Part shown: positions 6,146 to 49,640 of the stretch, piece after piece | Numbering within the stretch: position 1 is the first letter of the stretch | How the letters are laid out: each line of letters begins with the position of its first letter | Position numbers and translations under genes: made by a program | Notes under the pieces: model-generated | The model's input: only the letters and a program-made list of their open reading frames with translations | Told to the model about the DNA's origin: nothing | Databases searched by the model: none | Assembly (NCBI GenBank): GCA_964017235.1 | Contig: OZ024935.1 | Coordinates: 93,743,207 to 93,807,206 of the forward strand | DNA from: Sabellastarte sp. h YS-2021 | Lineage: Eukaryota; Annelida; Polychaeta; Sabellida; Sabellidae | DNA length: 64,000 nt | Direction: 5' to 3'

Positions 6146-8623
6146 CTAAACAGTCCTGGAATCCAGCATAATCAGCCTTTGAATGAGTCTCTTCAGTGTG
6201 CCTTGCTGTGTCTTGACAGTTGCTGATCTGACTAACCCATCATCACCAGTACTAACACTCTCCACTCTTCCAAGTGGCCATAGATTTCTATGGGTTTGAA
6301 GATCTTGTATTAGAACTAGATCACCAATTTTAACATTCTCTTCTGGGTGATGCCACTTATTCCTCCTCTGCATTTCGAGTAGGTATTCAGCCTTCCACTT
6401 ACACCAGAACTGGTCGGCAATGTACTGTGCATGCCTCCATCTCCTACGATACTGGTCCTTTTCATTGAAATCTCCCCAGGCCAAGCCTGGAGCATCTTTT
6501 AGCATCAGGAGATGATTTGGTGTTAAAGCTGCCAGATCTTGAGGGTCACTGCTCACCTTTGTAATGGGCCTGCTGTTAACTATGTTTTCTGCCTCGCAAA
6601 GAAGGGTGTCCAGTATCTCGTCATTCAAGCTTGCCTTCAGTAGCATTGAATTGAGCACTCGCTTGATTACTCCAATGAGCCTTTCCCAGACCCCTCCTGT
6701 GTGTGGTGCAGCTGGTGAGTTAAAGTGCCATGCAACTCCATTTTCCAGGCTGTACTTTTCAATGATTGTTTTGTCCATGTCCTTCATTGCCCTGTCTATT
6801 TCTGTCTGGGCTCCGACAAAGTTGGTCCCATTGTCTGACCATATCTTCTTTGGCATTCCTCTACGTGCTGAGAATCGCCTGACTGCATTTATGTAACTGT
6901 CTGCATCTATTGATGTCAGCTTTTCTAGGTGGACTGCCCTTGTTGTGAGACAGGTAAAAAGGCATCCATATCGCTTGACAGAAGATCTTCCTTGTTTTAC
7001 GAGGTAAGGGCCAAAACAATCCACACCCACATAGCTGAATGGGGGGTGGTCACCATCCATTCTCTCAAGGGGGAGATCAGCCATCTTCTGCTTGCATGGA
7101 TTGGCATAAAGCCTCTTGCAGGTAAAACATTGCTGCAGCACTTGTCTCGCAACCTTTCTGGGCTGTGTTATTCCAATCTGACGGTCTGTTGGCCACTGGG
7201 ATCTGTATTTCCTCAAAAATGCTGGTCCATACCACCACGTCTTAAGCTGCCCTGGTGTAGCCCCTATTGTCAAAAGGTCTGCTGGATTCCATTCCGACGC
7301 AACATGCTTCCACTGTTGGATATCAGTCAGGGAACATATAGTGCTTATTCTGTTGGCCTTGCTCATTGGTAGGCCCATGTGATCTTGAATGTATCTTGAC
7401 AGCTTGGCAGACAGCACTGCAGCTTGAAGTTCCAGGCGAGGTATGGTTGTGCTCCTTAGTGGGGAGACACGTGATTTGCCGCATAGTAGATTGACTTCCA
7501 CTTTTCCTTCCTTGCTGACTGTTCGGATGTAGGCACAACACCCATAGGCCACACTGCTGCTGTCCGAAAACATGTGAAGCTCAATATTTTGGTCCTTGAC
7601 CAGTCCTGTTACCATTCTTCTCCTCAGTTTGACATCAAGTTCAGATGACATGCAGTGCGTCCATCTGTCCCAATCAGCTTGGAGGTCTGCGGATACTGCT
7701 TCATCCCAGGTGAGCCTTCTCCTAGTTGCTTCTTGTAGAAGAAGCTTTCCTCTTATCATCAGTGGGTTCAGTAGTCCCAATGGGTCAAAGATAGATGCCA
7801 CTGAGCTGAGCATTTGTCTTTTGTTGACCGGACCTATTCTCAATTTCCAGTCTCTCTTACCGAAGCAGATTGTGTCATCCTTTGTGTTCCATTTCATGCC
7901 TAGAGTGTGACTGTAAATCCGATCCGTCAGGCTGTCATCCTTTACAATGTCATCCGCACTAATGTCTTCCAGCACCTCAGGTGAATTCGAGATGAACTTC
8001 GTCAAGTGGAATCCTCCACCCTGCAATTGCTGCTTTACATCACGTGCCAAACGCCTGGCTTCCTCTATGCCCTCAGCCGAATGGGCACAGTCATCAATGT
8101 AAAATGATTTGTCGATCACTTCACTAACATCTTGCATTTGCTCCTTACTGTTGTTGACTATTCTTTTTAGAGCATAAGTTGCAGCACCAGCTGACCAGAC
8201 AGCACCAAATACATGGCGTGTCATGCGGAAGACTGATTCATTTCCGTCTTCATCCCACCAAAGGAAACGGAGTGCATCTCTGTGTTCTTCTGGAACCACA
8301 GTCTGGTAGTACATGGCTTTGATATCTGCCATGAATGCCCATTGAAATCGTCTGAATCTCAGTAGCACACTGAGAAGTTGGTTGGACATATCTGGTCCCT
8401 TGTGAACTTTGTCATTGAGACACTCTCCTTGGTACCTTGCAGCACAATCAAACACTGGACGTAATTTTCCAGGCTTCTTTTCCGTAATGACTGCTTGATG
8501 AGGCAGGTACCATGTTCTGTCACTGTACATCTTGTCATTAACTTTCTCTGCATGTCCATCATGTAGGAGCTTCTTTATTTCCTTGTCATACGCATCAAAC
8601 AGGGACCTTCTTTGCAAGCTCAT
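6146..8623 (-). CDS. Bel/Pao Pol: RT, RNase H, integrase, DUF5641
   Basis: An 825-codon frame, the pol part of the element. It would copy element RNA into DNA and integrate it. The RT has D100 (motif A) and a YIDD box at 175-178. RNase H shows D354 and E398. The integrase core has an intact D535, D597, E647 triad, and a DUF5641 domain ends the protein. Two stretches normal for the family appear to be missing in frame: the third RNase H aspartate region near residue 423, and most of the segment before the integrase core near residue 480, which leaves only the C499/C502 pair of the HHCC zinc module. The Met start overlaps the upstream stop as ATGA. Because Bel/Pao normally uses a single Gag-Pol frame, this is probably a 1-nt break rather than a true start. 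Confidence 0.9.
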   Translation of the reverse strand: MSLQRRSLFDAYDKEIKKLLHDGHAEKVNDKMYSDRTWYLPHQAVITEKKPGKLRPVFDCAARYQGECLNDKVHKGPDMSNQLLSVLLRFRRFQWAFMADIKAMYYQTVVPEEHRDALRFLWWDEDGNESVFRMTRHVFGAVWSAGAATYALKRIVNNSKEQMQDVSEVIDKSFYIDDCAHSAEGIEEARRLARDVKQQLQGGGFHLTKFISNSPEVLEDISADDIVKDDSLTDRIYSHTLGMKWNTKDDTICFGKRDWKLRIGPVNKRQMLSSVASIFDPLGLLNPLMIRGKLLLQEATRRRLTWDEAVSADLQADWDRWTHCMSSELDVKLRRRMVTGLVKDQNIELHMFSDSSSVAYGCCAYIRTVSKEGKVEVNLLCGKSRVSPLRSTTIPRLELQAAVLSAKLSRYIQDHMGLPMSKANRISTICSLTDIQQWKHVASEWNPADLLTIGATPGQLKTWWYGPAFLRKYRSQWPTDRQIGITQPRKVARQVLQQCFTCKRLYANPCKQKMADLPLERMDGDHPPFSYVGVDCFGPYLVKQGRSSVKRYGCLFTCLTTRAVHLEKLTSIDADSYINAVRRFSARRGMPKKIWSDNGTNFVGAQTEIDRAMKDMDKTIIEKYSLENGVAWHFNSPAAPHTGGVWERLIGVIKRVLNSMLLKASLNDEILDTLLCEAENIVNSRPITKVSSDPQDLAALTPNHLLMLKDAPGLAWGDFNEKDQYRRRWRHAQYIADQFWCKWKAEYLLEMQRRNKWHHPEENVKIGDLVLIQDLQTHRNLWPLGRVESVSTGDDGLVRSATVKTQQGTLKRLIQRLIMLDSRTV

Positions 8624-10743
8624 TGTATGGGTCTCCAGCGCTTCTTAGCAAGTTTCTGGTTGCTTGGCATGACTATGCCTCTCTTGAATGGTATAGGCAG
8701 AACAAAGTGTCCATCTTTGAAGTGCGCAGTCTTGTCCCATAGCTCTTTCACCCCACGTTCCTCTTGAGAATATTCCAAAGAGCTGGCATCCGTTCCTTCT
8801 AGGTCGGCATTCCACATGTGATCAATTTTTGCACTTAACTCCACATCAGACATGTTCACAAAGTGAGACATGACCTCCTTTGGGTGCCTTTTGTGATGTG
8901 CTGGACCACTCAAAGTCCAGCCCAGCCGGCAGCGAACAGCAAAAGGATCTGTAGACTTTCCGCTCCTTACTTCTAAAGGCAGCAGAATACTGCTGTTATC
9001 TTGCCCGATTAAGAGACCCAGACGTGACCCAATGTCTCTTGGCAACTTTGGTAACACAATGCCTTGCAAATGCTGGTATCGTCTGAGGTGTGGTATATCT
9101 ATGGTGGCTGTTTGAAGTGGTATGGTACGAACCACAAATACATTGGCGAGTTGGATGAGTGCTCCATCTTCTCCCTTGATGCTTAAGTCGACCATCCAGC
9201 TGCACTTCTTCTCTGCCTGGTGATTCAATGTGTCTAGGCTGTATGTGATCTGCCTCCTGTTGACCCCAGCCAGAAGCACTATTTCTTCTGTGCAGAAAGT
9301 TGCATTGCTCCCGGTGTCAAGGAGTGCAAATGTACTTGCACCTCCATCAAACATTACGCCTAACACTGGCATGTATACGGAACCTCCGTTTGCTTCAGTT
9401 CCTGCCGCCGCATTTCCCAACCTTCTGTTGCTGTCAGCCACTGTCATGCCCTGTCTTGGAGTGTTCAGCAATGGTCCTGTATTCTGGGAAAGTTCATCAC
9501 TCACATGAAGAAACTTTGTGTGTTTTGCACCACAGCCCGGGACGCCACAGCGGCAACCACGCTTACACTCTGATGTTGTGTGGTTGTCGTATAAACAGTT
9601 ATGACAGAGCTTTTTCTGCTCTACGAAGGCCAATCTCTCTCTTGGTGTTTTTGTTTTAAACTGTGCACAGTCCCATAATTTGTGGTCTTCGTTGCACAAC
9701 TTGCACGGCCACGTTTTCCTTGCATGGCTAGTGGTCTGCAAGGCCTGGTTGGTGTGGACCGTCTTCTTCACAGCATAACGGTCCGTCTGTCTTGCGGTTG
9801 GTTTGACTGCCAGCCTTCTCTCTCCCCACATCGGGTCATTGGCAATTTCTGCCTGGGAAGCAATATATTTCATAAGCTCTTTGATCCCAGGGTAGCGCCC
9901 TTTCTCTTCACGGTGTTCCACAGCCTTGATCCGCCACTTGTTTTGCATGTAGCTGGGAAGGCGCATTACCACTTGCTGCATGAAACTGCGGGTGTCTAAC
10001 TCCTTCTCACTCTTCAACTGTAGGAGTGTGTTGTATCCATTCCGGAGATCATCTGAGAGCTGCCGTATTTCTGCAGGTGTCTTGGCAAGCCTACTGTCAT
10101 GGAGTTCACCTAATGTAGCTTCAACGATCAGGTCACTGTCCCCAAACCTCTTCTTGAGTACGCCAAGGGCTTTTTGATAGCCATCGTCACTGAAAACACA
10201 GGGCTGTATCGCACTCTTTGCAGCCCCTGTGGTGCAGTCCAGAAGACGGATCAACTTTATCTCGTCATCATCGATCCCCTTCACTGATTGCACAAAAACC
10301 TTCATGAATGTGGTATACTCAATGGGGTTACCGTTGTATGTGCCTACATCAAGTTTGGGCATGGCGAGTAGTGACGCAATCCCGGAGAGGCCACCCTTGT
10401 TGGACATTGCACTTCCTTTATTAGTGTCATCTTCTCCTTTCAAATGGCTTTTCCCTTTCTTGAGCACGGTGATGTACTCCCCTCGGGCCTGCTCCAAGAA
10501 AGCATCCGCCACATCCAGGTCTGCTTCCTTCGTCAGAAAAGTTTCATAGCTCACACAGGCCTCACTGAGTTCATCAAAAGCAGACTTGAGCTCAGCAAGT
10601 GCTGCTTCCACTTGATCGTTGTCACCTTCCTCAATCCTCTGCACAACAAGGCCTGCTGCTCGTCCTAGCTGTCCACGCTTGGAGCGACGATTCTTCCTCG
10701 CATCTCTTGCAGCTGCCTGCTCTTCTTCTGTTGGTGCAGACAT
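8620..10743 (-). CDS. Bel/Pao Gag and aspartic protease, start of RT
   Basis: A 707-codon frame starting at the first ATG after the 5' LTR. A charged, coiled N-terminus (about 1-110) leads into a DUF1759 Gag-like region (about 130-290). Zinc knuckles follow at 347-359 (C-x2-C-x3-H-x4-C) and 380-393 (C-x2-C-x4-H-x4-C), with a further Cys-rich motif near 397-413. The retropepsin-like DUF1758 protease has its active DTG at 476-478. The frame ends at residue 707 inside the RT N-terminal conserved segment (KKRWRPIQ), which continues in the next frame. It would package element RNA and cleave the polyprotein. Confidence 0.9.
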   Translation of the reverse strand: MSAPTEEEQAAARDARKNRRSKRGQLGRAAGLVVQRIEEGDNDQVEAALAELKSAFDELSEACVSYETFLTKEADLDVADAFLEQARGEYITVLKKGKSHLKGEDDTNKGSAMSNKGGLSGIASLLAMPKLDVGTYNGNPIEYTTFMKVFVQSVKGIDDDEIKLIRLLDCTTGAAKSAIQPCVFSDDGYQKALGVLKKRFGDSDLIVEATLGELHDSRLAKTPAEIRQLSDDLRNGYNTLLQLKSEKELDTRSFMQQVVMRLPSYMQNKWRIKAVEHREEKGRYPGIKELMKYIASQAEIANDPMWGERRLAVKPTARQTDRYAVKKTVHTNQALQTTSHARKTWPCKLCNEDHKLWDCAQFKTKTPRERLAFVEQKKLCHNCLYDNHTTSECKRGCRCGVPGCGAKHTKFLHVSDELSQNTGPLLNTPRQGMTVADSNRRLGNAAAGTEANGGSVYMPVLGVMFDGGASTFALLDTGSNATFCTEEIVLLAGVNRRQITYSLDTLNHQAEKKCSWMVDLSIKGEDGALIQLANVFVVRTIPLQTATIDIPHLRRYQHLQGIVLPKLPRDIGSRLGLLIGQDNSSILLPLEVRSGKSTDPFAVRCRLGWTLSGPAHHKRHPKEVMSHFVNMSDVELSAKIDHMWNADLEGTDASSLEYSQEERGVKELWDKTAHFKDGHFVLPIPFKRGIVMPSNQKLAKKRWRPIQ

Positions 10744-10805
10744 CTCTTTGTTTACGCTTCTTGAGGTGTGCCTCTTAAGTTGTCACTTCGGAGATTTCTT
10801 TAAAC

Positions 10806-12893: not shown

Positions 12894-15800
12894 TTACACA
12901 GCCCTTATGGTTTGATAAGAGCTAGGAGTGCTGGTGATTTCTCTTTCTCCAAGCTCTTGATAATCTGTTATATCTCTCCTTTGTGTATCTTGTGCAACAG
13001 CAGACATCTCATCCAAAGGTATTTCATAATCAGCATTACCAGCATTGTTTCTTGATCCTACAGAATGGATGTTGGACATTTCTGTGACACGTATTGGCTG
13101 TTTACTCTTTGAAATTTGGTTTCTGTGCCACAGTCTGAATACAATGGTAGAGAGAACCAGAGTGACCAATGCAGAAACCACTGAACAAACAACAGCTGCA
13201 AGGGCTATTTGGTTCGAGCATGAATCTGCAAAGAATATGTACATATGCTAACAGTAACTTTACAGCTTTGACAGTCTAAATGAGAATAATGACAGTGGAA
13301 CGACTTATATAAGTTTTAGCATAATACAATGCTTGCCTTCGAAATAGTTTTATTACTCACCCAAGAGTCACCCAAGCATTTACTTGATATGTAACATGAA
13401 AAGAAGCCATGGGTAGAAAATCAGATTACAAATATTAGTTTTATCCTTTAAAGGTGGTTCCTGAAGTGTAAATTACTTGTAAAACTATATTAAACAAGAG
13501 GACTCAGAGAGTAAAAACCTCCACAAAAGCACATAACAATAACTAAATGGATAAGTTGGACCTGATATTTTTGTATCCAGATGGTAATAAAGATCACTCT
13601 AAAAACTTAATGGGATCTGCACTGGACCAAGGCCCAACTCTCCTTTTTAAGCGTGAGCTCCCGTGAGGTTCACACTTCTAGAGATCACTTCCTTTGTTTC
13701 CGGACTTTCATGAATTGTGGCATGGCCACAATGACTATTGGTCTTTTACAGAAGTTAAACAGCTATGGAATACATCCGTACTGGGATGGGTTACCGCTTC
13801 AGTGCACTACTTATGTCTCTGATGGCTTTATGCTAGAGTTAATACACCAAAATCCCTTTTTGCCTTGTTTCATGAAGATATAATCAGTAGTATTTGCATA
13901 ATCATGCTAACAGACAAATGTTTGAAAAAATATATCTCCTTGGCAGAGGAAATAAACAGCTGATGATCAGATTGTTCTCTGAACCATTTATAAGGTTCTG
14001 ATATCAGAGATTGATATACACAGCTACAGAGCCCTATGTAGGATATGATATATTTTTTATGTCAGTATCAAGACAAATTATTAGAGCAACATTCATTATC
14101 TGTTTATGCCACACTTTATTTAGTTTTTTCATTACCTTTAGATGCATCTCTGCATGTTATCTCAGTAGTTGTTGCCAGGCTTTCAGAACAAGTACCTCCT
14201 TGGTAACCTTCTTTGCAACCTCCAGGACAATCAAGTCCTGTGACGTGGTCGCATGTTCCTACTTTGCAGTGACATGTCATCTTACAGTCTTGACCAAAGT
14301 ACCCTGGGAAACACCCTGTTAAAAATTGCATTAAAAATACATTTGTTTGAAAGATTCAATTTTTTTTTAAAACTATTGATTTTTACAAACAAAATAAACA
14401 ATCGAACAAATTTTGAAAGTAAGTCCTTCCTTTTGAAATACATTAATATAGTTCATTTCAGCAGCATGAGTTAATAAACTTTCACACATATCTTTTAGTC
14501 AAACAAACATCTCAATAAAACATGTCAGTATGACACATGTTTTAGTTTATTTGTAACAAAAAAATCTTGCCTGTTTCACAGGTGTTGCCTGTGTATCCAG
14601 GATTACAGCCCCTGTTACAATAGCCAGTTTGTTGAGAACATTCATCTTTGCAGTTGGGAGGACAATCAAGTGTACACCTGTCACCATGTGTACCCAGAGG
14701 GCATTCTGAAGTCATACCATTTTATCAATTTAACAACAATTTTAAACATTCAAAACCCAATGCATGAGTTCAGATGGATTGTTCCACAGCCATATCACCA
14801 AATTCTCACTACAAAATGACAATGACTATTCAACATTAACAGCCATTTTATTATTTTATATTATACTTTACATCATTTATTATCAGCATACAGTGAGATG
14901 ACATGCTAGAGTAAGTTAATTATTAAAGGTAGTGAAAAGAAAGGTTTAATTTTGTAAAAAGTACCCTCAGAGCAGTTATTTCCTTTGAATCCTGAATCAC
15001 ACTCTCCATTAGGACATGCACCATCTGCTGTAAACTTGTCACATGGTGGATTCTTACAGTTTGATGAACAGTTGTGTGCACACTCCACACCATAGGTTCC
15101 ATCTGGACAGACTATACGATTCATAATTATTTAACTTAGATGAAAAAGTCATATGCTTATGTACACATTTCAGTAGAAAGCGAAACTCTGTAATTAAGGT
15201 ACATCTTTTATTGACCTATTTAAGAAAATTTCCTAACAGTAAGGTACAGGAACGTATTATCAATACAATGGCACACAAATAGTAAATATAGTGGGATTTG
15301 ATCAATAACTCACAGGCTTTAAGTATTCATACAAGGTTGAAAATGTTTGGTACTTTGGTATGTTACATTTGTATAAGCATTGTGAATACTATATAAACGG
15401 GAATTTCTGTATGAAATATAAAAACATAACTCATTTAAAATCATTTAAACTGGTAATAATATATTGTCTTTGCTTATCTAGAAAATACTATTTGAGTAAG
15501 GTATCCATTTGATTTTCTAAATGTACCTGCACGCACCCCAACTTCACATAAATTTATAATTGGTTCTGGACGTGTAACACTCAAATATCTGCAACAAACA
15601 ATCACAAATGCTTGTAAAAGTTCAACTTATATATCAAGATAATTTGGCAACAAATTCGATATTTCATTGAATAATGTTGTATGAGTGTCTTTAAAGATGT
15701 ACAAACCTGGCAGTTATGGGCACATCACAATTAAACGTCCTGGTTGCACTATTCCCAAAATTTCCATCAAAATGTAAGCATAGGTACTTGTCATCATCCT

Positions 15801-16335
15801 TATATGGATTGAATGTTTTATTTGATCCATATATGGGAAATCCATTCAGTCTGTGCGCTGGAAGTAATAAAAATAAAACAAACTAAGAGAGGAACATTAT
15901 ACTGAAGGACAATATTTTTGACATATGACAAAAAATAACATTTTTCCTTTTTCATGTTTTCATAATATAACCATCATCTTAAAGACAGTGTGAGTCACTG
16001 AGCAGCTGTCATGATATGACATGAAATAAATCCCTTAATGTTGCATTTGCTTAATTAAATATATATTTTTTCTTCTTACTCACAACAATCTTCAATTCAA
16101 TTGGTAAGAGCCACAGAGAACACAGTCACAAAGGATCCCATGTCCACAGCCCACCATGGTTTCTCCTTATTTGGGAGTGTATGTGTACAGGAGCATTCTT
16201 TAAAATTATTATCAGTGTTTCCATCTACAGCCTTGTCACTTGTCCCGTCTATTCTCATGCCATTATTTCCAGTTTCAGAATAAACTGAAGACTGATTCGT
16301 GGGCTTTCCAATGAGACTGAATGTGTACATCCCAT
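12894..16335 (-). CDS. FTP lectin-EGF-transmembrane receptor, copy A
   Basis: Seven exons read on the minus strand: 16335-16084, 15857-15707, 15588-15527, 15111-14965, 14705-14571, 14315-14136, 13225-12894. Phases agree across all junctions and give about 419 residues before the final stop. Exons 1-3 encode a fucolectin/tachylectin-4/pentraxin (FTP) domain with DKAVDG, PWWAVD, HRLNG and LCEVGV motifs. Exons 4-6 encode Cys-rich MEGF-like EGF modules and a short Thr-containing stalk. Exon 7 has a membrane span (IALAAVVCSVVSALVTLVLS and following) and a tail of about 80 residues with Tyr motifs YEIPL, YQEL and YQTI. The likely role is a surface glycan receptor; this is inferred. Exon 1 has an in-frame TGA at 16097-16099 where copies B and C have CGA. 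The exon 5 donor is GC rather than GT. The first exon with the signal peptide was not found. It could be a polymorphic or recent pseudogene. Confidence 0.8.
13498..13640 (-). repeat. Degenerate copy of the CTTGGCGGAGGT element
   Basis: Inside the last intron of copy A, the words 'gtatccagatggtaa' and 'gatcactctaaaaac' and the end 'actcagagagt..acctcc' match, in antisense, the element at 1486-1812 and its relatives. The ends are eroded. Confidence 0.4.
13640..13880 (+). repeat. Dispersed repeat family R, intron copy
   Basis: It shares 'aagcgtgagct', 'ttctagagatca', 'ctttcatgaattgtggc' and 'gtctctgatggctt' with copies at about 1255-1440, 43700-43860 and 55195-55650 (plus) and 18175-18440 and 41080-41275 (minus). 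Non-coding; class unknown. Confidence 0.55.
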
Positions 16336-45817: not shown

Positions 45818-47784
45818 CAGTTAAAGGTTAAATACATGTTTCATTTGCTGGGTGGGTTTCTTGGCCAGCTAAGGAAATACAAGCATTATAAATTTTACAA
45901 ATGTTGTGCCTGGTTAACATCAGGTAGATATAGAAAATTTTAAATACTAATTAAATAAAATTTTAATCCCATATTGTTTTTCCTTTAAATTCTTACTAAC
46001 TTCTTGGGAACTGATATGGAATATATGTTACTGTATGGGATATTGTATATTTCATTAATGATTCTACTAAAAATGGTATGCCAGGGCTTACTAGATTATA
46101 CACAAGATACTCCCCCGATAATGTTAGGAATATATTAAACAGAGGATTGAACTACTAATCAGTAACTGAGCCACCTTCCTTTTTTGCGGAGTTTCAGTGT
46201 TGACAATTTTTATCATCCTTAATCTTGATATTGGAATTTGTACTTCTTATCTGTGACATAAAGTATGCTTTAATCGAGCTTAAGTCCTGTAAAAGTGGGC
46301 TCAAATTAGAATTAAGGTAATATATACTTAAATAAATAGCTTTTATGCTGAAGTTATTAGTACTAGGCGTCTATAAATCATTCCCATATTTATTCAGAAT
46401 GTGTTCCCACATCACACCCGGTTCACACTCACTAATGCAGGCCTCACAAGTTGTACAACAAGTCATATGTATATAGCTCATCAGGACTTGTTTGTGACTT
46501 GACACATTTTGTGTCTTGGTAATCAGCATAAGGCCTTGTAAGTTTGATGTAACTTTATTAGGTAGGATTCATTCTCTACACTATGGATATCATTTCCACC
46601 TGCTTTGAAGTGATTAAAATCCTCATATGAGCTTCCACGTGCTCAATTAAACTCAAAAGAGCAGGAAGGCTAGAGGTGGGAGTGGAAAGTCTATATAGGG
46701 AAACATGTTTATGAATGTACACTACCAAAGTACGTGGTTCAATTACTGGGCAGTTCATGAAAGAAAATTCAAATTTCCATCAAATCCTACCACATCAGAT
46801 GTACAGCATGGCCTAAGGCAAAAATAGGCATTTTTTCAAAACATGGCTCAAAAATCACAAAACAGTGTCAACTTAAACAGTTTCAGATAGAAAAAAACAT
46901 TCCATTGATAGCATGCATGGTATTATAGCAGGTTCTAAGTATCAAAATAATTACCAACCTTTCAGATCATATTATATTTAAGAAATTTGGTTCAGTAGTT
47001 TATGACAGACAGTTTGTCGTCTTATGCCTAAGTCACATCTCTCCATTTCACTGGTATGAATCAGCCACAAATTAAGTTGTGGCCCAAATTATCTGTAACA
47101 TCCTATTCACACTACATGTCATTTCATTCTGTCTGACTTATTCACAGCACAGGCAGACGATTAGACAAAGTTTTTAACCATCAATAACAATGGAATGAGA
47201 CTACTACAAACAATGGTCACGGACAGGCAATCATCATTAACTTTAGCTCACCTTATGTAGTCATATTACAGGAAAATGCTGTAATGGCTACACAAGTGCA
47301 CTGCCCTCCTACTATATTACACCAAGCTAACACTATGTAGCAGTTTGTAGCTATATACAGGGTAGTACTTTGCAGAATGTATGTCAGTGTTGCGAAACCT
47401 ATCCAAAATGTTTACCACAAACTTAGTCTGAATAATGGTCATGGAGGTTGTAAGTAAATCCTTTCAGCATGTAACATGCTGTACATCTGATATGGTAGTA
47501 TTATGGAAACACAATGTTTTATTGCCAAATGGATCTACCAGTGAGTCAAAGTAGTATCATCCTGCTGCTATCATCCTAAAGCCACAGTCTTCCCCCTCTT
47601 CTTATATTTGCAGTTTTTTATTAATTATACTTGAGTCATGCATTACGTCATACAGTATGTATAGCTAGTGTTTCACCATTTTGTAACTACTTTACTGTTT
47701 ATGTATATCTTTTCGTTTTAATATTATTTTTAAGAGCAGAATTTTCGGTAAAATTAACAGATAACACATAATTTATCCATTAAA
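45818..47784. other. Non-coding, no gene recognised
   Basis: Short frames only. Part of 47030-47300 resembles 39470-39760 ('caataacaatggaatgagact', 'accatcaataac'), an unclassified repeat. Confidence 0.35.
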
Positions 47785-49640
47785 GCTTCTTAACAGGTCC
47801 TCTGTTGCTGTTCTACCTGATTACACAAGTAAAACCGACCTTGCAAACACTTTCTGTAAGTTCCTTTATGACAAAATCCTCAAAATAAGATCCACACTGC
47901 AGTCATCAATACCATCTTTAGTTACTAGACCCAACCCCACTAAAAATACTCTGTCCTCTTTCACACCTGTGTCCGAGGAAGAACTACTCAAAATTCTAAA
48001 GTCCTCCCCATCCAAATCATGTGACCTTGACCCGATTCCGACGTCACTGGTCAAGGAGTGTGCTGATATTCTCATCACCCCCATCACTAAAATTGTAAAT
48101 TATTCAATCACAGAAGGTAGTCTTTCCAACTGTTTTAAGATGGCATATGTCACCCCCCTTCAAAAGAAGCCGAGCCTTGATAGAAATATCCTCAAAAACT
48201 ACAGGCCTGTGTCAAACCTCAGCTTTATATCTAAACTTATTGAGAAGGTGGTGGCAAAGCAGCTAAATGAATTTATTTCGCACGAGGGGCTCTTAAACGT
48301 CAACCAGTCTGCTTATAAGAGTTCCCACTCCACTGAAACTGCATTGTTGAAGATTCAGAATGATATAGCTCTTTCAGTGGACTCAGGAAAGGCAGTGGCC
48401 CTAACATTATTAGACCTCTCAGCGGCGTTTGATATGATTGATCATTCGCTTTTATATGACTGCTTGCATGACTGGTTTGGTCTAGATGGTACTGTTTTGT
48501 CATGGATCAAATCGTATCTTTCAAACAGTAAACAAAAAATTAAAATAGGTGATAGTTTCTCTGAGGCGGTAATACTCCCTTTTGGAGTCCCCCAAGGCTC
48601 TGTGCTGGGTCCTCTCCTTTTCACCCTCTACACTAGTCCCCTCAGTCAAGTTATTTCAAAATTCAATGTTACTCATCACCTGTATGCCAATGACACCCAG
48701 ATCAACCTAGCAGTTGACTCCAGGAACTTTGACTCTAGCATTGAAGAGCTGACTGAGTGTCTCAAGTCTGTACAGGAGTGGATGGACGGTGTCAAACTAA
48801 AACTAAACCCAAAAAAACGAATTTATCATTATAGGTCAAAAAGCCATCAGAGAGTGGCTTGCACCAAATTTCCCTGTTCCACTCCTCCAAAACAATATCT
48901 CTCCGTCGGTGTAAAATATCTCGGTGTTATTTTTGACTCAGACAACTCCTTTGACAATCATATTGCCAAGGTTTGCAGAGCATGTTACTATAATCTTCGT
49001 GATTTGCGACGAATTCGCAAATTCCTTGGAGTCAAGACAACAATACTTCTGGCAAATGCTATGGTCAGTAGTCGTCTAGACTACTGTAACTCTTTACTCC
49101 ATGGGGTAAGCAAGTCCAACATAGCCAAACTACAGAGAGTCCAGAATGCTCTTTGCCGCATCATCTTCAGACTTGACAAAATGAGTCATGTTAAACCCTT
49201 TTTGAAAAAACTCCACTGACTCCCAATTCAACATCGCATCCTCTTTAAGTATAATCTTTTGGTATTCAAGGCTATTAATCTTTCACAGTCCCCGTATCTT
49301 TCAGCTTTAATAAGATCGAGCAGTCTCACTCGTGGCAACAGGCTATCTATCTCCTCAACCCACCCTAAGAAGCACATAGGCAGGGGTGCCTTTGCAGTAG
49401 CTGCACCAGCTGAATGGAACAAGCTGCCACAGACTGTCAGATTTCAGCAAACAATAGATGGTTTCAGAAGCCAGCTAAAGACCTACTTGTTTAGGCTGGC
49501 ATACCCACCACCTTAGTTATACCCTGGCGGCAACAATGAGAAACAAAGTGAACCTTTTTTATGATAATGGATAGAGTATGACTGGTTTCATGTACAATAT
49601 ATTATACTTTGCACCAAAATAAAATTTTGCATGAAACAAC
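47785..49640 (+). mobile_element. 5'-truncated LINE (CR1/L2-like)
   Basis: A non-LTR retrotransposon fragment. The same frame can be read from about 47785, before the first Met at 47969, and past a stop at 49217-49219 to 49516. The endonuclease domain is missing. A short 3' UTR follows. It lies upstream of, and opposite to, receptor copy B. Confidence 0.85.
47969..49516 (+). pseudogene. LINE reverse transcriptase, inactivated
   Basis: RT motifs appear in order: NYRPVSNLSFISKLIEKV, TLLDLSAAFDMIDH (motif A), GVPQGSVLGPLLF (motif B), HHLYANDTQ (motif C) and LKLNPKK (motif D). The motif C aspartate is replaced (YAND instead of YADD), which should abolish polymerase activity. A TGA at 49217-49219 replaces the Trp of a conserved HWLPI motif, and the frame then continues to its natural end (AEWNKLP motif). 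Motifs fit the CR1/L2/Rex1 side of the Jockey group; the exact clade is not determined. Confidence 0.85.

Follow-up and report, generated by a model that had tools for sequence, protein, structure and literature searches.

A tandem array of putative F-type lectin receptors with ITAM-like tails, and a unit that appears to carry phosphatase domains, in a sabellid annelid genome

The gene at 16335-12894 on the minus strand of the 64,000-nucleotide stretch analysed here (the window) is best explained as a member, itself probably null, of a tandemly arrayed family of type I receptors. We consider it somewhat better than even, at a probability of roughly 55%, that these are lectin-gated ITAM-type receptors, with signalling predicted, and that they form pairs with phosphatase receptors built on the same ectodomain. 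Eleven related tails lie on one strand within 282 kb of contig 11 (C11, 93.70-93.98 Mb). Read from sequence, a single cluster holds a shared ectodomain that is followed by phosphatase (PTP) exons in one unit, U1, and by ITAM-like tails in the others. The initial annotation of this DNA had proposed a lectin-EGF receptor with an ITAM-like tail; it contained neither the in-frame TGA, the signal-peptide exon and the damaged paralogue at 61144-50462 nor the tandem array with its phosphatase-tailed unit.

With its probable signal-peptide exon included, the focal gene has eight phase-consistent exons on the minus strand; an F-type lectin domain comes first in the product and is followed by three EGF-like modules, a single membrane span and the tail. 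The seven exons proposed earlier were all present within 16335-12894, with AG acceptors, GT donors (one GC) and consistent phases. The first lectin (FTP) exon (16335-16084) is entered and left in phase 1, the second (15857-15707) is entered in phase 1 and left in phase 2, and the third (15588-15527) reads YLSVTRPEPIINLCEVGVRA. EGF-like modules a (15111-14965), b (14705-14571, with the GC splice donor) and c, the last with a short stalk (14315-14136), are followed by the exon for the membrane span and the cytoplasmic tail, which contains YEIP and YQEL-x11-YQTI (13225-12894, stop codon included). Since all introns are in phase 1 save the last within the lectin domain (phase 2), the lectin block and each EGF exon are symmetric modules. 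The one membrane span of the annotation was recovered as a single hydrophobic stretch near residues 330-362 of the focal model, and the membrane exon reaches its stop codon 76 residues past column 34 of the tail alignment, with no phosphatase domain. A GC-AG intron after EGF exon b occurs at the same position in units U1, U3, U4 and U8 of the array; U2, U6 and U7 have GT there.

A probable signal-peptide exon (21459-21402, minus strand; MWGIWILTFVLWIPHVQAQ), recognised by eye and by conservation, lies about 5 kb upstream of the lectin exons and ends in phase 1. It falls below the hydropathy cut that was applied to the membrane span. An exon resembling it is present in U2, U3, U5, U6 and U7; U1 has merely a match of 26-30 bases, and a search of U8 found none. 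Intron 1 of the focal gene contains a 3.86-kb tandem duplication (28336-24482 versus 21763-17905, 99.1% identity), the far end of which may exceed the 12 kb compared. It includes a second copy of the signal-peptide exon (28032-27975), and two identical ones precede the lectin exons. The duplication is either recent or an assembly artefact.

After splicing, the focal model comes to 438 codons, with a sole internal stop at codon 99, an in-frame TGA (16099-16097, minus strand) in the first lectin exon that directly follows ALTN. At this site U1, U2, U5, U6, U7 and U8 encode Arg (CGA in four, CGT and AGG in the others), and U3 is frameshifted just ahead of the matching codon. The lost residue aligns with Arg79, part of the fucose site of eel agglutinin according to the portion of PMC5712786 available. 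A change from CGA to TGA in the focal copy would be a CpG transition. Because of this codon, the focal copy is probably null in the present assembly, so that the proposed union of a lectin head with an ITAM-like tail in one receptor applies to the family, and only in part to the copy in which it was first noticed. The gene might still yield a receptor if the three lectin exons were skipped, since exit from the signal-peptide exon and entry into EGF exon a are both in phase 1, and the rest of the 438-codon model has no other internal stop. We think such an EGF-only ITAM receptor improbable, as the stop fits a C-to-T change at CpG, a common type of nonsense mutation.

We then looked beyond the focal copy, which we continue to regard as probably null. 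With the focal tail as query, the genome from which the window comes (1.79 Gb) gave 12 matches, 11 of them on the minus strand of C11 at 93.698-93.981 Mb; the twelfth, on C14, had an E value of 0.26 and three TGA codons and was dropped as a chance match. Over 257 kb analysed contiguously, eight units (U1-U8) repeat the order lectin-1, lectin-2, lectin-3, EGF a, EGF b, EGF c and tail on one strand, with the exceptions that U3 has no EGF c match and U1 no ITAM-like tail. The same 257 kb also hold one broken lectin fragment and one partial unit. Because order and strand recur across the array, the lectin exons and the tail exon are parts of a single gene. The alternative, that the FTP and transmembrane exons come from separate genes, is further answered by three siblings that are open from end to end in eight exons: U2 (428 codons), U6 (437) and U7 (443). 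U8 is open across the seven exons analysed. Nine of the 11 tails have an upstream lectin-exon match with no intervening tail; for those at 93,918,789 and 93,958,586, no upstream lectin-exon match was found before another tail.

Other copies are damaged, namely U3 (frameshift), U4, U5, the L021 copy and the fragment at 38764-38532. Within the window, paralogue U5 runs on the minus strand from 61144 to 50462, with its signal-peptide exon outside the window. Its lectin exons lie at 61144-60893, 60440-60290 and 53257-53196 (the last with a TAA), its EGF exons at 52784-52638, about 52342-52220 (frame broken) and 51426-51223, and its tail exon, with YQEL-x11-YQTV, at 50793-50462. The broken lectin-exon fragment (38764-38532, minus strand) has a frameshift and an in-frame TAG. 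Elsewhere on C11, at 93.878-93.891 Mb, an extra lectin exon (93,890,449) and EGF exons (93,881,354-93,880,244) occur with no tail before the next unit; they could be a truncated unit or could read into U8, giving two lectin domains. The window also contains two long adjoining ORFs (6146-10782, minus strand; 832 and 720 aa) that by eye read like a BEL/Pao-kind retroelement (pol with an integrase-like part; gag with a protease-like part), and a 484-aa ORF (47765-49219, plus strand) that by eye reads like the reverse transcriptase of a non-LTR element.

The focal tail contains YQEL, 11 residues and YQTI, with tyrosines and spacing as the initial annotation had given them. The ITAM consensus is Yxx[LI]-x6-12-Yxx[LI], a pattern that goes beyond chance expectation here: when the focal tail was shuffled 20,000 times, it arose in 134 cases (0.7%). 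The 11-residue spacing is identical in all 11 tails and exceeds the 6-8 of classical ITAMs. The strict form Yxx[LI]-x11-Yxx[LI] is present in eight tails, the focal one included; the exceptions are U5 (YQTV), L020 (YQEV) and L021 (YQEP at the first site). We aligned ten of the tails, leaving out L021, which has a stop in the span. The invariant columns were R35, Y89, L92, G93 and Y104, and Y89 and Y104 are the two tyrosines of the motif. A third tyrosine (that of YEIP) is found in five of ten tails, and no further column within 35-108 has Tyr in more than two. At the membrane edge (column 34), five of ten tails likewise have a Tyr.

Omega was pooled over pairs of tails, and synonymous divergence was similar across regions. 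For the eight motif codons it was 0.179 with eight tails and 0.197 with ten, compared with 0.391 and 0.502 for the membrane span and 0.643 and 0.735 for the mid-tail. These values support a stronger selective constraint on the tyrosine pair than on other parts of the tail. They also bear on whether the array is mostly made of decaying duplicates whose tails are alike only through recent common ancestry. The damage to U3 (frameshift, EGF c not found), U4, U5, L021 and one fragment would agree with decay. Three copies are nevertheless open from start to stop, and motif omega is 0.18-0.20 even though synonymous divergence has reached about 0.55-0.7, which makes general decay very unlikely. Genome searches that used either the focal tail or the L019 tail as query brought up no tail outside the array apart from the discarded C14 match, and a scan of GTDB genomes for tail relatives gave 18 pattern matches, none of which was confirmed.

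Constraint on the tyrosines could also reflect sorting. The endocytic signal is YxxPhi, with L, I, M, F or V as Phi, and the array could then encode recycling glycan-binding scavenger receptors that are internalised by AP-2 without ITAM signalling. Both sites fit this signal, with L, I or V as Phi, in 10 of 11 tails, against eight of 11 for the strict ITAM spelling. We nonetheless hold this explanation to be a minority one, although the most credible of those that we set against ITAM signalling. The 11-residue spacing is kept in all 11 tails without an indel, and after the first site G is invariant and E and R nearly so in the ten aligned tails; to our knowledge, AP-2 binding requires neither a fixed spacing nor G, E or R after the first site. 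An inhibitory tail, or a general SH2 docking tail of ITIM/ITSM-like kind that recruits an SHP phosphatase, appears very improbable. The ITIM consensus is [SIVL]xYxx[LIV], and the second site of the focal tail, SxYxxI, has this spelling; across the alignment, however, the residue at -2 is S, I, V or L in just one of ten tails at either site.

The FTP fucolectin-type domain of the initial annotation was borne out by siblings of the focal copy. The lectin domain of U2 matches FBP32 (3cqo; E 5.4e-34) and eel agglutinin (1k12; 7.1e-21) across its length, and spliced U6 and U7 match PF22633 at 8.4e-14 and 4.6e-15. In the focal copy, the first half of the domain reaches the PF22633 cut-off (32.9 bits), and the second half has a weak PF00754 match only (19 bits; cut-off 28.2). 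For the EGF modules, none of the Pfam EGF models was above cut-off. They are EGF-like as described, the best solved-structure (PDB) match of the U7 modules being Tie2 (2.7e-7).

The array heads are homologous to the F-type lectins FBP32 and eel agglutinin over the whole domain, and some copies keep the His and RxDx4R. The fucose motif of F-type lectins is His ... RxDx4[R/K] in the part of PMC5712786 available to us. The focal copy fails it because its Arg codon is TGA; RxDx4R is kept in U1, U2 and U8, and the Asp is lost in U5, U6 and U7. In U2 the His-Arg spacing is 27, compared with 24 in the published motif. Given the altered motif in U5, U6 and U7, sugar binding by the array heads may have diversified. 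Across six units, pooled omega was 0.18-0.43 for the exons of the lectin domain and of the EGF modules (lectin exon 3 left out), indicating purifying selection on average, and this value, which averages over sites, gave no sign of overall positive selection on the head exons. Multi-domain F-type lectins combine with CCP, C-type lectin, pentraxin, transmembrane, EGF-like and other domains (PMC5712786); unlike the array, the forms in the available portion of that source are described with no ITAM tail.

U1 lies at the low end of the array; its lectin exons start at 93,670,177, and its EGF exons reach down to 93,646,843. Its membrane exon, 0.9 kb after the third EGF exon, has a different sequence, and at E values up to 1 it has one further match in the genome, at 94,050,627. 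That match is just ahead of same-strand PTP exons at 94.039-94.021 Mb, and the genome-wide lectin-exon search gave no lectin exon near this second gene. PTP exons that are colinear with U1 and share its strand also lie downstream of it. Two ORFs that by eye resemble a PTP start, KNRYINI near 93.6349 Mb and NRVKLKQIDDNPLSSYINASYI near 93.6319 Mb, precede exons with PF00102 matches, which cover positions 50-82, 133-176 and 177-222 of the profile. One more PF00102 exon further on (positions 38-74) was taken for a second phosphatase domain. The signature HC|SAGIGRTG is intact and split over two exons, and the TAA counted in the stretch at 93,608,406 is placed after the exon in our present reading. 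U1 appears to carry phosphatase domains on the same lectin-EGF head; what links the exons, in genomic DNA, is their position and their order across some 32 kb. Its phosphatase exons depart at places that we take to be usually conserved in PTPs (NWRM, YLGSTDKT), and because of these differences phosphatase activity of U1 is not assured.

Compared with the first lectin exon of U7, which has an ITAM-like tail, that of U1 is 76% identical; four others at 94.7-96.3 Mb of C11 are at 49-58%, and those outside 93-97 Mb of C11 at 39-47%. The high U1/U7 identity, set against 39-47% elsewhere, suggests that head and tail recombined inside the array, whichever came first. In the whole genome we found 47 lectin-exon matches at E values up to 0.001. 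Of the 35 that lie outside the array, at least 21 are followed by a same-strand PTP match no more than 150 kb away, and 14 have no such match among the matches listed, which are the best 150 of 309 candidates; PTP matches on the opposite strand within 150 kb numbered none of 35 among those listed. The 35 exons fall into a handful of clusters and are not independent. Between 93.646 and 94.021 Mb there was no PTP match among the matches listed (best 150 of 309). Lectin-exon clusters with downstream phosphatase exons on the same strand occur on C11 at 75.0-76.7 Mb and on C18 at 85.2-86.1 Mb, and further ones on C11 at 45.0-45.1, 80.9-81.05 and 24.3-24.5 Mb. Since downstream PTP matches are common outside the array, lectin-EGF-phosphatase receptors are probably a large family in this genome, with EGF exons read in the array only. 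The ITAM-tailed array looks like an offshoot of that family. The ectodomain is the same in U1; the focal tail has a different membrane exon and no phosphatase domain.

Among known systems, the oyster C-type lectin receptors CgCLec-HTM and CgCLec-TM1 are reported to bind bacteria and, through their ITAM-like tails, to associate with Syk (PMC13027682, in the part available). They share with the array a transmembrane lectin head and an ITAM-like or hemITAM tail, and the predicted products of the array are expected to work like a lectin ITAM receptor. The oyster receptors differ in their C-type lectin; the array has an F-type lectin, three EGF-like modules, a two-tyrosine motif and a phosphatase-tailed unit. 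The idea that the layout belongs to no described receptor class thus has to be narrowed, for lectin receptors with ITAM-like tails and Syk are published in oyster. What survives of it is the F-type-lectin version and the phosphatase pairing: neither an F-type lectin with an ITAM tail nor one paired with phosphatase tails was found among the literature matches listed, mainly non-subscription papers, and the available parts of PMC8902148 and PMC5877582 hold nothing on an F-type-lectin/ITAM architecture. In a snail genome, the portion of PMC7895826 available names fucolectin and MEGF among expanded families and abbreviates PTPRK in the same figure legend; relatives of the array may be included there under BLAST names.

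The kinship to Draper/MEGF10-type receptors that had been suggested proved weak. Draper signals through Src42A, its own ITAM and Shark, and EGF modules, a single span and an ITAM are points of likeness between Draper/MEGF10/CED-1 and the array (PMC4503800 and PMC8092387, in the parts available). Unlike those receptors, the array units have three EGF modules only and an added lectin head. Two full-length siblings gave no EMI match at E values up to 0.1, NPxY is absent from all ten aligned tails, and on these two grounds the array receptors are not members of the Draper/MEGF10 group. Vertebrate paired receptors have similar ectodomains and opposed tails (PMC3533184, in the part available). The negative partner in the array, if the tails are indeed opposed, would differ from theirs in carrying the phosphatase itself in place of an ITIM.

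In the mechanism that we propose, the lectin head would bind surface glycans of microbes or altered cells, with a fucose-like specificity where the His/Arg-x-Asp/Arg site is kept and a changed one where it is not. Clustering would then enable phosphorylation of YQEL and YQTI by a Src-family kinase, and a Syk/Shark-type kinase with tandem SH2 domains would dock on the phosphorylated tail and lead to phagocytosis or effector signalling in haemocyte-like cells. The genome has 42 SH2 matches, and no Syk or Shark was identified among them. Relatives with the same head and a phosphatase tail would act as counterweights on meeting the same ligand, as in vertebrate paired receptors.

A broader proposal, which we put forward tentatively and with less confidence than the pairing itself, is that the array represents an invertebrate paired-receptor system. 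One F-type-lectin/EGF ectodomain in a tandem array would be joined either to an ITAM-type activating tail or to a catalytic phosphatase tail, with tail exons exchanged at a phase-1 intron, and the counterweight to glycan recognition would be a receptor that acts as the eraser in its own right. If this is true, lectin-triggered ITAM signalling and activating/inhibitory pairing would have arisen or persisted in an animal without adaptive immunity, and the brake would be a receptor phosphatase instead of an ITIM. The array offers a concrete test system for this, with matched heads, two kinds of tail and natural nulls.
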